From Clostridia bacterium (GTDB lineage: Bacteria; Bacillota; Clostridia; Oscillospirales; Acutalibacteraceae): a stretch of DNA of 61,367 nt. The position numbers and the translations under genes were made by a program. How positions within the stretch are numbered: the first letter of the stretch is position 1; every line of letters begins with the position of its first letter. The stretch covers positions 1-61,367 of the forward strand of contig JAFSEF010000121.1 in assembly GCA_017435865.1 (NCBI GenBank), read 5' to 3'. The notes beneath the pieces were generated by a model, which had not been told where the DNA came from, searched no databases, and was given only the letters and a program-made list of their open reading frames with translations. Below are positions 56,248 through 61,354 of this stretch, in pieces.

Positions 56248-57027
56248 TTATAACACTTTGCTCAAAAATGTTTTCAGACGTTCCGTCTGCGGATTGGTAA
56301 AGAATTCCTGCGGTGTATTCTCTTCCGCAATCACACCTTCGTCAATGAACAGAACACGGGTACCGACTTCGCGGGCAAATCCCATTTCGTGCGTAACGAC
56401 CACCATGGTCATACCGCTTGCAGCAAGCTCTTTCATAACATCAAGAACTTCACCGACCATTTCGGGGTCCAATGCACTCGTAGGTTCGTCAAACAACATG
56501 ACCTTGGGATTCATAGCCAGTGCTCTTGCAATTGCAACACGCTGCTTCTGACCGCCCGACAATGTAGACGGATAAGCACTTGCCTTTTCTTCAAGACCGA
56601 CTCTGCGAAGCAAACGTCTTGCATCTTCTTCACAGTGGGCTTTTAGCTCTTTGGCTGTTTTCGGACCTGTATACTGCGGATCTTTTTTCAGCTTTCTGAG
56701 CTTCTTTTTGCCCAGGCAGTACGGTGCAAGCATGACATTGTCAAGTACGGTTTTGTTGTTGAACAGATTGAACTGCTGGAACACCATACCGATTTTTTCA
56801 CGGTGGCGGTTGATATCCACATGGATGTTTGCAATGTCTTCGCCTTCAAAAATGATGGAACCGGAAGTCGGGTCTTCCATACAGTTCAGACAACGCAGAA
56901 ATGTACTCTTGCCGCTGCCGGAAGGTCCGATCACAACGACCTTTTCACCCTCATGAATGGTGGTGGTGATTCCCTTGAGAACTTCATGGTCTCCAAAGCT
57001 TTTATGCAGATTAACGACGTCTATCAC
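56248..57027 (-). CDS. Amino-acid ABC transporter ATP-binding protein
   Basis: This 259-residue ATPase is of the polar amino-acid (GlnQ/HisP) type: [17 protein letters not shown] (Walker A, about 32-48), [38 protein letters not shown] and [14 protein letters not shown]. Between the Q-loop and the signature there is an extra basic stretch of about 25 residues ([20 protein letters not shown], about 108-127) that ordinary GlnQ proteins lack. It may contact the enlarged cytoplasmic loop of the adjacent permease. Its start overlaps the permease end by 17 bp. Confidence 0.94.
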
Positions 57028-57844
57028 TTTTTGCCAACCACCTTTCCATAATTTTCAGACCGATCGTAATGATAACGACCAATGCAATGTAAATAACCGA
57101 AAGCACGATATACGGAACAGTATATTCATAAGTACTTGTACCGATCTGCTTGAACGCATAAACCAGATCCAATGCACCGGCATAACCGATGATCGAGGTT
57201 TCCTTGATGAGAGCAATGAACTCATTTCCCAATGTGGGCAGAATGTTTTTGATTGCCTGCGGAACCACGATTTTGATCATGGAAGACGCATAACTGAAAC
57301 CGACGGCTCTTGCAGCTTCAAGCTGCCCGCTGTCTACCGAATTGATACCGCCGCGCATGATTTCGGAAACATAAGCACCACTGTTCAGACCGAAGATGAT
57401 GATACTTGCCTGCACGGCCGTCGCTTTGAACCCCATGGACGGAATCAAAACGAAGTAGCCGAGCAACAACTGTACCATAACAGGTGTACCTCTGAACAAG
57501 GCGACATACAAAGAACAGATCTTCTGCAGAATGACGGGCGTTCTCTGCAGAATCCACATGATTGCAAAGAACACATAATACAAAGTCACAACACGCAGCA
57601 AAGGCTTTTTCGGAAAACGATCCAGAAAACGGTCAAAACGGCTCTGCATTGCATACGGCAGCACAGGATATTTCGGCATTACACTGACAACAGCAATAAT
57701 GCAACCGATCAGCATACCGATGATCAGGCCAAGTACGGCAACCATAATGGTGTTTTCAAGTCCGGCAACGACTTGTTTATAGCCGCCCTTATCAATAAAG
57801 TTGACAACAAATTTATCCCATTTCAGGGCAAAGTCTGTCAGCAT
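57011..57844 (-). CDS. Amino-acid ABC transporter permease with long insertion
   Basis: This 277-residue permease of the HisMQ family starts [25 protein letters not shown], has transmembrane helix 1 (about 31-54), and carries the EAA-type loop [24 protein letters not shown]. Between helix 1 and the usual [20 protein letters not shown] segment it has about 60 additional residues, including [13 protein letters not shown] and a hydrophobic stretch [15 protein letters not shown]. Standard members pass directly from helix 1 to the RGTP segment. A hairpin separates it from the binding-protein gene, as is common to balance expression. Confidence 0.92.
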
Positions 57845-57900: not shown

Positions 57901-57931
57901 TAAAAACAACCCCGTCTGTCGGCGGGGTTGC
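57901..57931 (-). terminator. Partial terminator between binding protein and permease genes
   Basis: On the minus strand AACCCCG pairs with CGGGGTT and is followed by GTTTTTA. It probably reduces readthrough, so the binding protein is made in excess. Confidence 0.75.
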
Positions 57932-57949
57932 TGTATTGGTTTGAATAAC

Positions 57950-58894
57950 TTAACCGTTAACGCCTGCAACGATGTTGTTGGCAGGAGCTTCGTCGATCAC
58001 AACGTAAGCGATGTTGCCGTTGAGGATATCCTGCACAGCAAATGCACCGTTGGAGTAGCCGACACCGACAATGTTAGCAAAACCTGCGAAATCCCAGTCT
58101 GCATCACCGACAATGTAGAATGCACCGGTGGTACCGGTCTGATAACCGACCTGAGTGCCTTCTGCAAGACCTGCAAGGATAGCTTCAACTTCTTCAACTG
58201 TTGTGCAGTTGTCAAAAGTGGTATCGTTTGCAGCAGCAATGATCTTCTGAGAAGCATTGTAGTAAGAAGTGGAGAAATCAAGGATTTCTTCGCGTTCGGG
58301 CTTGATGGTAAGACCGGAAGCAGCGACATCACACATACCTTCGCCGACAGCTGTGCAGACGGAGTCGAATTCCATGTCGTTAACAGCAAGAGTCATGCCA
58401 AGGGACTGTGCAAACAGGTTCATGATTTCGATGTCAACACCGTAGTAGTATTCGCCTTCAACATATTCGAAGGGAGCGAATGCTGCATTGGTAGCGATGA
58501 CAAGCTGATTTTCATTTTCGGTATCAACTTCTGCGTCAGCAATCAGAACGCCGGTCTTTTCACCGTCACCGAAGTAAGCGTTCATGATAGCATCAAACTG
58601 ACCGTTTGCACGGATTTCAGCAAGGAAATCGTTAAGAGATGCAAGCAGTTCTTCGTTACCTTTGGTAACAGCGAAAGCGTATTCTTCGTTGGTCAGCGGA
58701 ACATCAATAACCTTAAGAAGGTCGGTGCTTTCAGCTGCATCTTCTTCAGCTGCGTTGCCGTCGGTGACAACATTGCCGTCGGTAACAGCGTTGCCGTCAG
58801 ACACATTTGCATCATCCTTGCTGCAAGCTGCGAAGCAGCCGATTACAAGGCAAAGAGCAACAAGAACAGAAAGAACAGAAACAAGTTTTTTCAT
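57950..58894 (-). CDS. Amino-acid-binding lipoprotein with circularly permuted domain order
   Basis: The 314-residue protein has a lipoprotein signal (AACSKDD, Cys 24) and a linker with three VTDGN-type repeats. Residues 59-108 (LKVIDVPLTNEEYAFAVTKG, NDFLAEIRANGQFDAI) match what is normally the C-terminal end of family 3 binding proteins. Residues 131 onward (LVIATNAAFAPFEYVEGEYY, VNDMEFDSVCTAVGEGMCDV, GLTIKPEREEILDFS) match the normal N-terminus. The protein ends at AYVVIDEAPANNIVAGVNG, exactly where the missing C-terminal part would continue. The order is therefore a circular permutation. The ligand is probably a polar amino acid. AAAGGAG precedes the ATG. Confidence 0.9.
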   Translation of the reverse strand: MKKLVSVLSVLVALCLVIGCFAACSKDDANVSDGNAVTDGNVVTDGNAAEEDAAESTDLLKVIDVPLTNEEYAFAVTKGNEELLASLNDFLAEIRANGQFDAIMNAYFGDGEKTGVLIADAEVDTENENQLVIATNAAFAPFEYVEGEYYYGVDIEIMNLFAQSLGMTLAVNDMEFDSVCTAVGEGMCDVAASGLTIKPEREEILDFSTSYYNASQKIIAAANDTTFDNCTTVEEVEAILAGLAEGTQVGYQTGTTGAFYIVGDADWDFAGFANIVGVGYSNGAFAVQDILNGNIAYVVIDEAPANNIVAGVNG

Positions 58895-59154: not shown

Positions 59155-60918
59155 TTACTGATATTTTGCCAGAGAGTACTTTTCGGCAAAGGATTCGTAC
59201 TTACTGCGGAACGAAGGATCGTCATGCTTCACGGCTTTCAGGTACTGGTGCATATCCATTGCATCATGCGACATCTCAAGAATGCAACCTGCTATATTGG
59301 AACAATGGTCGGACACTCTTTCAAAGTTATTCAGCAAATCCGCCCACACAAAACCGACAGCGATGGTACAATTTCCCTTTTGCAGTCTCTTGATGTGTCT
59401 TGCACGCAACTGTTCTTTGAGATCGTCAACAACCTGTTCAAGCGGTTCAACATAGGTTGCAGCTTCCAGATCGTTCTGCAGGAACGCTTTCATGGTATAG
59501 AATACAATCTCTTCGGTAGCGGTCGTAAGTACTTTGAGTTCCTGTTTTGCGGACTCGGAAAACGCAATATCTTTTTCATTGATTTCTTCTGCAGATTCAA
59601 GAATATTGACGGCATGGTCGGAAATACGCTCAAAGTCGCCGATCATATGAAGAAGCTTAGCAGCTTCACGGCTGTCCTTGTCGTTCATGGCTGCGGAATT
59701 CATCTTTACAATGTAAGTACCGAGGATATCTTCGTAATGGTCAGCTTTATTTTCTTTCTTGCGTATATCCGCTGCCAGTTCAGGCGAGTAATCCTCCAGA
59801 GAAAAAATGGCTTTTCTGAATGCATCTTCGCTGATATGTGCCATTTTTTCCGTCAGTTCACGGCATCTCTGAATTGCAAGGGACGGGGTGATCATCAGAC
59901 GTTCGTCAATTTCAATTCTTTCCTCTTTGGCCTGCTCCCCTTTCGGTTCGGGAATGAGTTTCATGGAGAGTTTTTCAAGCAGCGAAGAAGCCGGGAACAT
60001 AAGAACGGTACACAGAACATTAAACATGGTATGAATCAACGCAATTTCCCAGGCACCCGCGGCAGAATCAAGTACCGGTAATTCGACCAAAGCTTTTACC
60101 GCAGAATAGACCACTAAAAGCACAACCGTCCCGATGACATTAAAGGAAAGATGCACAACGGAAGTACGGCGGGCATTTCTGGAAGTGCCGACGGAAGACA
60201 GCAACGAAGTCACGCAGGTACCGATATTCTGTCCCATAATAATCGGTACAGCAGCACCGACAGATACCTGACCTGTTGCAGCCAGGGCCTGCAGAATACC
60301 GACCGATGCGGATGAAGACTGAAGAATGCCTGTCAGCACGGCACCGACGGCAACACCGAGAATCGGATTGGAGAACATAATAAGCAGATTGCGGAACCAT
60401 TCCACATCACGCAAACCGACCACAGCTCCGGACATGGTGTCCATACCGAACATCAGGGTCGCAAAACCGAGAAGAATGCCGCCGATGTCTTTTTTGCGAT
60501 TGTCCTTGGATCCCATAAACAGAATAATACCGATCAGAGCAAGCAGCGGTGAAAAAGATGTCGGTTTGAGCATCTGTACAAGGAAATTATCGCCCTCAAT
60601 GCCGGACAAACTCAGAATCCATGCAGTGACGGTTGTCCCGACGTTGGCCCCCATGATGACGTTGATTGCCTGTCGCAGGGTCATCAACCGGGAGTTGACA
60701 AAACCGACCACCATAACCGTTGTTGCGGAAGAGGACTGAATGACAGCAGTCACACCGATACCTGTCAGGAAGCCCGTTATCTTTTTGTTTGTCAAACGGC
60801 CGAGCAGAGACTTCAATCCCTCACCTGCTGATTTTTCAAGGCCGGCTCCCATCAGGTTCATGCCGAACAGAAACAGACACAAACCGCCGACCATTGTTAA
60901 TACATCAAAAAAATCCAT
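59155..60918 (-). CDS. Na+/phosphate cotransporter-like protein with PhoU domain
   Basis: This 587-residue NptA/Na-Pi family protein has two inverted repeats with the QSSSATTVMVVGFV (about 61-74) and QSSSASVGILQALAA (about 200-214) signatures. GANVGTT and GQNIGTCVTS follow, with about eight membrane helices up to about residue 310. The C-terminal 240 residues are PhoU-like helices (LLHMIGDFERISDHAVNILE, LLNNFERVSDHCSNIAG). It likely imports phosphate with sodium. AAGGTGACGC precedes the ATG. The promoter overlaps a 24-bp palindrome containing TTAACA half-sites. Confidence 0.92.
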   Translation of the reverse strand: MDFFDVLTMVGGLCLFLFGMNLMGAGLEKSAGEGLKSLLGRLTNKKITGFLTGIGVTAVIQSSSATTVMVVGFVNSRLMTLRQAINVIMGANVGTTVTAWILSLSGIEGDNFLVQMLKPTSFSPLLALIGIILFMGSKDNRKKDIGGILLGFATLMFGMDTMSGAVVGLRDVEWFRNLLIMFSNPILGVAVGAVLTGILQSSSASVGILQALAATGQVSVGAAVPIIMGQNIGTCVTSLLSSVGTSRNARRTSVVHLSFNVIGTVVLLVVYSAVKALVELPVLDSAAGAWEIALIHTMFNVLCTVLMFPASSLLEKLSMKLIPEPKGEQAKEERIEIDERLMITPSLAIQRCRELTEKMAHISEDAFRKAIFSLEDYSPELAADIRKKENKADHYEDILGTYIVKMNSAAMNDKDSREAAKLLHMIGDFERISDHAVNILESAEEINEKDIAFSESAKQELKVLTTATEEIVFYTMKAFLQNDLEAATYVEPLEQVVDDLKEQLRARHIKRLQKGNCTIAVGFVWADLLNNFERVSDHCSNIAGCILEMSHDAMDMHQYLKAVKHDDPSFRSKYESFAEKYSLAKYQ

Positions 60919-61105: not shown

Positions 61106-61181
61106 GGGAGCATAGCTCAGCTGGGAGAGCACTTGCCTTACAAGCAAGGGGTCACAGGTTCGAGCCCTGTTGTTCCCACCA
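61106..61181 (+). tRNA. tRNA-Val (anticodon TAC)
   Basis: 76-nt cloverleaf. Acceptor GGGAGCA/TGTTCCC, anticodon stem CTTGC/GCAAG with loop CTTACAA, T-loop TTCGAGC, CCA encoded. First of three tRNAs in one transcript. Confidence 0.95.
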
Positions 61182-61185
61182 TTTT

Positions 61186-61262
61186 GGCCCGGTAGTTCAG
61201 TTGGTTAGAACGCTAGCCTGTCACGCTAGAGGTCGACGGTTCGAGCCCGTTCCGGGTCGCCA
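61186..61262 (+). tRNA. tRNA-Asp (anticodon GTC)
   Basis: 77-nt cloverleaf. Acceptor GGCCCGG/CCGGGTC, anticodon stem CTAGC/GCTAG with loop CTGTCAC, CCA encoded. It lies 4 nt after tRNA-Val. Confidence 0.95.
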
Positions 61263-61278
61263 TTTTTTCTGTGCATTT

Positions 61279-61354
<76 letters not shown>

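Follow-up and report, generated by a model that had tools for sequence, protein, structure and literature searches.

Natural circular permutation is a known kind of change in binding lipoproteins, as the published case of TpMglB-2 attests. In the portion of its description considered here, TpMglB-2 (Tp0684) of Treponema pallidum is presented as a naturally permuted type I sugar-binding protein, for which the designation 'type Ic / cluster Bc' was proposed, with homologues in Gram-positive, often gut, bacteria and with anchoring suggested by the authors as a possible reason (PMC4990184). The protein analyzed in this work resembles TpMglB-2 in being a naturally permuted binding lipoprotein of an ABC importer. 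Going by the same portion of that description, however, TpMglB-2 has a type I (cluster B) fold and binds sugar, whereas our protein belongs to family 3, of amino-acid type, and this difference in fold and family makes its permutation a separate event.

Canonical members of the SBP_bac_3 family, represented by GlnBP (1ggg) and AncQR (4zv1), share with our protein the family, the segments, most aligned pocket positions and the kind of operon partners. Their segments follow the order N1-L2-C1 (lobe-1 front, lobe 2 and C-terminal part), with the tether or N-terminus entering lobe 1; our protein differs in segment order and, by prediction, in the lobe that receives the tether. The GlnPQ-type tandem 6h30, whose domains we take to be fused to a permease (as the name of the entry also has it), is made up of two complete canonical domains, unlike our protein, and the junction between its consecutive domains aligns with the stretch that runs from C1 through a linker to N1 in our protein. 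Circular permutants of family 3 were reportedly engineered for FRET sensors by Clifton et al. in 2017, which suggests that this fold may tolerate permutation in the laboratory; those permutants were designed, whereas the present one is natural.

Altered order of structural elements also distinguishes OpuAC from ProX. A domain dislocation between the type I and type II folds was described by Fukami-Kobayashi in 1999, as cited in the consulted part of PMC10601554, and the consulted part of the OpuAC paper mentions neither permutation nor dislocation (PMC2861598). In both the type I/II dislocation and the OpuAC/ProX case the order of elements changed between families, anciently, whereas the rotation described here lies within one family. 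Among the matches listed in a search of the open-licence literature, judged by title and start of abstract, we found no report of a natural permutant of family 3, and to our knowledge one seldom meets natural circular permutants whose close canonical relatives share the operon layout.

Here we analyze a gene located in the window, that is, the whole stretch of 61,367 nucleotides of clostridial DNA under study. With a probability of about 0.9, we read its product as a functional amino-acid-binding lipoprotein of family 3 (type II fold), circularly permuted by nature, that serves an ABC importer whose permease is encoded by one gene and whose ATPase is GlnQ-like. The observations on which this reading is based are segment order, conservation, clade, operon and selection.

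Segment order and operon context of the window protein

The minus-strand reading frame at 57950-58894 runs without an internal stop and encodes 314 amino acids, in which a solute-binding protein of family 3 is preceded by a lipoprotein signal peptide and a tether of 34 residues. The signal peptide (58823..58894) ends in the lipobox FAAC, and its predicted lipidated residue, Cys24 as read from the translation, is invariant in 25 of 25 aligned members. The tether (residues 25-58; 58721..58822) is followed by segment C1 (residues 59-110; 58565..58720), the canonical C-terminal segment placed first, which was delimited with a segment hidden Markov model (HMM) and crossed alignments. A linker (residues 111-128; 58511..58564), defined by the distance between the C1 and N1 hits, leads from the canonical C-terminus to the canonical N-terminus. 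Beyond it lie segment N1 (residues 129-221; 58232..58510), the canonical N-terminal lobe-1 segment as placed by Pfam and alignment, and the lobe-2 segment L2 (residues 222-314; 57953..58231), placed by translation and segment HMM, which ends in VVIDEAPANNIVAGVNG and is closed by the stop codon at 57950-57952. The reading frame, strand, coordinates and residue boundaries given by the sequence-only reading agree with this translation. Within the tether, whose length varies widely among relatives, the DNA contains an 18-bp tandem repeat in 2.4 copies (58755-58798).

Pfam assigns the protein to the family, with SBP_bac_3 (PF00497) matching at an E-value of 3e-30 and 105.1 bits against a gathering cut-off of 26.4; the best stretch places residues 131-227 on profile positions 1-97 of 132. 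Beyond SBP_bac_3, the Pfam scan of the window protein returned only Lig_chan-Glu_bd, below its cut-off, and no type I sugar-binding family; OpuAC was absent among the matches up to an E-value of 0.01.

The sequence-only reading had proposed a circular permutation, with the C-terminal segment placed before the N-terminus, and three lines of evidence bear it out. Alignments to solved structures are crossed: positions 12-171 of AncQR (4zv1) match window residues 131-305 (i-Evalue 2.4e-13) and positions 182-233 match residues 59-110 (9.6e-5), while positions 3-117 of E. coli GlnBP (1ggg) match residues 129-246 (9.8e-16) and positions 174-223 match residues 61-110, the latter weak when taken alone (0.13). 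Segment HMMs for N1, L2 and C1 were built from 10 canonical-order relatives and used to read the segment order in the reading frames of 113 loci; the window protein contains all three canonical segments, arranged as C1 (8e-12), N1 (2e-33), L2 (5e-14) rather than as the canonical N1-L2-C1. We take segment order to be usual, not defining, for SBP_bac_3, and the window protein is a permuted member of the family.

In the third line of evidence, a rotation scan, a core of canonical order was opened in steps of three residues, its ends were rejoined through a linker of 20 X, and each rotated version was scored against each protein. For the window protein against the canonical L028, the local score rises from 315 unrotated to 395 with the best rotation, and the best cut falls at core residue 165, between L2 (which ends at 165) and C1 (which starts at 166). 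The scan thus favors rotation over the collinear order that could have contradicted the proposal, with the cut at the L2/C1 boundary. A gain of at least 20 was obtained for 48 of 48 proteins of the window clade, all with the best cut at core residues 159-168. In a control of 34 canonical proteins, from which the reference and its near relatives (4 of 38 rows) were left out, rotation brought no gain at all.

Downstream of the binding protein lie a single permease gene of the polar amino acid ABC importer type (57011..57844, minus strand; Pfam/homology and permease tree) and a gene for a GlnQ-like ATPase (56248..57027, minus strand; Pfam/homology), so that the three genes adjoin on one strand in the layout of a polar amino acid ABC importer. 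The product of the single permease gene is probably a homodimer. Between the binding-protein and permease genes, a stem-loop followed by a T run (57902..57932, minus strand) has a folding energy of -16.9 kcal/mol (z -2.0), with equally stable structures in 7 of 200 shuffles. Its role as an attenuating terminator is only suggested, because the consensus terminator scan did not list it, and it may possibly lower the expression of the permease relative to that of the binding protein.

The operon is flanked by a gene for a Na+/phosphate cotransporter with PhoU domains (59155-60918), which is also adjacent in near relatives (L007-L009), and three tRNA genes (Val, Asp, Phe) cluster at the end of the window (61106-61354). 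The same genome encodes a paralogue (L004-L006) with N1 before C1 (L2 was not detected) and with its own permease and ATPase.

Conservation, selection and distribution of the window clade

Within segment N1, residues F139, F176, G194, T196 and R201 align with pocket residues of GlnBP. All 25 aligned members are identical at the positions matching GlnBP F13, F50, G68 and R75 and at D301, which belongs to the VIDEAPA motif; R201 is the residue that aligns with residue 75 of 1ggg. We presume that the GlnBP-aligned positions keep their pocket roles and that an arginine and an aspartate of this kind serve alpha-amino acids; D301, assigned by its motif, is the predicted amino-group ligand. Asn136 stands where GlnBP has Asp10, and the ligand may therefore differ from glutamine.

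Across 6 of the 15 possible pairs among six near relatives, dN/dS was 0.03-0.22 for C1, 0.01-0.12 for N1 and 0.07-0.26 for L2, against 0.16-1.4 for the tether and 0-0.55 for the linker, all rough values because synonymous differences are high in some pairs. Conservation in the pocket, together with purifying selection on each of the three segments, suggests that the protein works. Tether length, which was weighed as a possible reason for the permutation and was measured up to the first HMM hit, has a median of 15 residues (4-51, n = 48) in the window clade; canonical proteins, for which a lipobox was found in 36 of 38 using a loose pattern, have 24 (7-54) and other rotated groups 6-9, the ranges overlapping. 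The distance between the C1 and N1 hits is 20-24 residues in the 48 window-clade proteins and 18-26 residues across all rotated groups (medians 18-22), as expected if this stretch bridges the same two ends of lobe 1.

Genome sampling covered one phylum. The window type occurs in 18 of 59 near genomes and in 27 of 391 genomes of the class, its own genome included in both counts, the criterion in the class survey being an E-value below 1e-50 with a match along almost the full query. Among the named carriers are Acetivibrio mesophilus (an isolate, L041) and metagenome-assembled genomes of Oscillospiraceae and Clostridia. In a sample of 398 genomes of the phylum, the matches listed have window-type ranges only in G144 and in the window's own genome, both of the class. 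Among the 25 of 1794 plasmid matches listed, none resembles a single rotated protein by ranges and piece counts; H4, which matches in one piece with high coverage, is annotated as a fusion of binding protein and permease.

The 48 distinct proteins with the window order form one clade with support 99/94. Together with a second group of 9, they make up 57 distinct C1-N1-L2 proteins; in 55 of these, the next gene downstream, in the same orientation, encodes a permease (the distance limit of this count left out the permease of L071, which overlaps the gene); an ATPase follows the permease in 52 of the 57. In a quick permease tree, all 47 window-clade permeases tested fall into one group with an SH-aLRT of 100, this tree resulting from a short search with long branches and carrying one warning that touches L075, the outermost member. 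Homologues of the same order thus track their permease type, as the sequence-only reading had asked. The window permease and those of its nearest relatives carry about 40 residues (positioned by eye) that are absent from other window-clade permeases. An insertion of this size going with the permutation was considered and rejected: only the nearest relatives match the window permease over all 277 residues, and the other complete window-clade matches span about 225-240.

Other rotations in family 3 and the number of events

The second group with the window's cut comprises 9 proteins (L083, L086, L088-L091, L093, L095 and L112; L107 repeats L083) that are close to canonical relatives and sit in two places of the tree. 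A crossover-cut group of 21 proteins (L029, L076-L082, L084, L085, L087, L092, L094, L096-L098, L102, L104, L108, L111 and L125) is opened at the N1/L2 crossover between lobes 1 and 2 and has the order L2-C1-N1, with a direct permease fusion in L077, L078 and L104. A lobe-2-cut group of three (L138, which equals the gene in L146, L144 and L145) consists of half of L2, C1, N1 and the other half of L2. The rotation scan places the best cut at core residue 165 in 9 of 9 proteins of the second group, at 93-96 in 21 of 21 crossover-cut proteins and at 129-141 in 3 of 3 lobe-2-cut proteins. This last group rests mostly on the scan, since the HMM hit of its moved L2 half is weak in L145 (0.03) and lacking in L138 and L144.

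Larger architectures also occur. L150 (1454-3790, plus strand, 779 aa) encodes a tandem of two crossover-cut L2-C1-N1 units and a permease, and L105 (1206-4205, minus strand), L109 (118-3789, plus strand) and L110 (1263-3530, minus strand) encode large permease fusions with arrays resembling L150, some of their segments being detected and the remainder read by eye. L106 and L113 resemble the crossover-cut rotation in another subfamily, with C1-N1 detected and the lobe-2 part read by eye. Tandem canonical binding domains are present in the phylum in L129/L149 (one gene), with a permease, and in L148, with a separate permease gene.

Order groups were defined by segment order before a careful tree was computed for 119 re-ordered proteins and 215 columns; the tree is unrooted, and in its three lobe-2-cut rows the second L2 half was placed by position. 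The tree left out reading frames whose best segment hit exceeded 1e-15 (among them the L004-L006 paralogue, the cut-off L048, the array L110 and a second reading frame of L137), duplicates of a core already included, and 10 multi-unit or segment-lacking reading frames (L105, L106, L109, L113, L129 and L148-L152). The lobe-2-cut proteins form one clade (100/99). Explaining the segment orders on this tree takes 8 changes, against a minimum of 3; C1-N1-L2 requires 3 changes and L2-C1-N1 requires 4, both numbers being forced by the branches starred in the tree. A single origin was rejected modestly for all 57 C1-N1-L2 proteins (p-AU 0.031) and strongly for the 21 crossover-cut proteins (p-AU 7e-45). 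We conclude that family 3 underwent several independent rotation events but give no exact number, because the tree has no root, the proteins were sampled for their similarity to permuted queries and some changes may be reversions.

Mechanism, origin and alternative readings

Comparison with canonical relatives allows us to predict the fold, the placement of the lobes, the class of ligand, the effect on the tether and the route of origin. The linker of about 20 residues would join the canonical N-terminus to the canonical C-terminus, each of which belongs to lobe 1, and the new termini would fall in lobe 2, past the stretch that follows the pocket aspartate and ahead of the final strand of that lobe. 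Given this cut position, and what we take to be the lobe limits of GlnBP, lobe 2 would receive the lipid tether that enters lobe 1 in canonical proteins. With neither lobe nor the pocket losing any part, the result would be an ordinary lipoprotein for amino-acid capture that would pass its ligand to a homodimeric permease. As the docking site built from a single permease gene would be symmetric, a change of the tethered lobe may carry little cost, and this low cost could explain why the permutation is tolerated. The structural and docking effects that the sequence-only reading had attached to the permutation likewise stand as predictions.

The same segment order would be left by a trimmed tandem, and the gene might then be a decaying, truncated tandem duplication, in which C1 would be a functionless C-terminal remnant of a first copy since lost, and the protein's own C-terminus would be missing. 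The tandem binding domains of 6h30 do align across the C1-N1 junction: among the solved-chain rows (the best 60 of 81, the best 60 of 135, all 46 for the crossover-cut L082 and all 32 for L088, from the second group with the window's cut, used as queries), which were judged by their best stretch, with further stretches considered only where alignments existed, 6h30 alone has a best stretch that crosses this junction and covers most of the protein. Decay is nevertheless improbable, given that C1 is under purifying selection (dN/dS 0.03-0.22 in 6 pairs) and that one clade of 48 distinct proteins has retained the C1-N1-L2 order within a transporter operon. The truncated duplication that the sequence-only reading had offered as an alternative does not compete with the permuted topology; it is the likely route by which that topology arose.

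An artefact of assembly or gene calling that fused two genes might be suspected in a draft of 133 contigs that is 85% complete, yet the frame is free of stops and the same protein type is found in independent genomes, including the A. mesophilus isolate; an assembly error is excluded by its presence in three single-contig genomes (G248, G277 and G403), and we assign a fusion artefact a negligible probability. We also consider a domain-swapped dimer improbable, where the early C1 would pair between molecules and each chain would complete the fold of its neighbor. Swapped elements are described for permuted ribose-binding protein constructs in the consulted part of PMC10601554; the C1-N1 linker, however, is of similar length across rotated groups (medians 18-22), as expected if it spans the termini within one molecule, although this is no direct test.

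For the permuted lipoprotein that we favor, the most likely origin would be an in-frame tandem duplication, followed by loss of the front of the first copy and the tail of the second. Tandem canonical domains, the expected intermediate, are found in the phylum in L129/L149 and L148, which may be unrelated to the window clade; none was found inside the window clade, and the fetched flanks of the 57 C1-N1-L2 genes contain no second reading frame of at least 100 codons with a binding-protein segment.

More broadly, we lean towards the view that family 3 in Clostridia and nearby Bacillota is prone to permutation, with several independent cuts (at L2/C1, at the N1/L2 hinge and inside L2), with tandem arrays as the source, with some rotated arrays (L150) entering the permease straight from the lobe-1 crossover strand, and with rotation as a recurrent choice of which lobe is tethered, to membrane or permease. 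The layout of a rotated array leading into a permease recalls the pore insertion point of ionotropic glutamate receptors.

Several rotations within one family constitute a natural series, which makes it possible to test how much it matters in ABC import which lobe bears the membrane tether, and how circular permutants arise, with tandem arrays as intermediates. The rotated proteins of family 3 are also ready-made permutants for biosensor design, and they warn that changes in segment order escape any annotation that relies only on domain content. Family 3 binding proteins seem to tolerate cutting and rejoining in nature.
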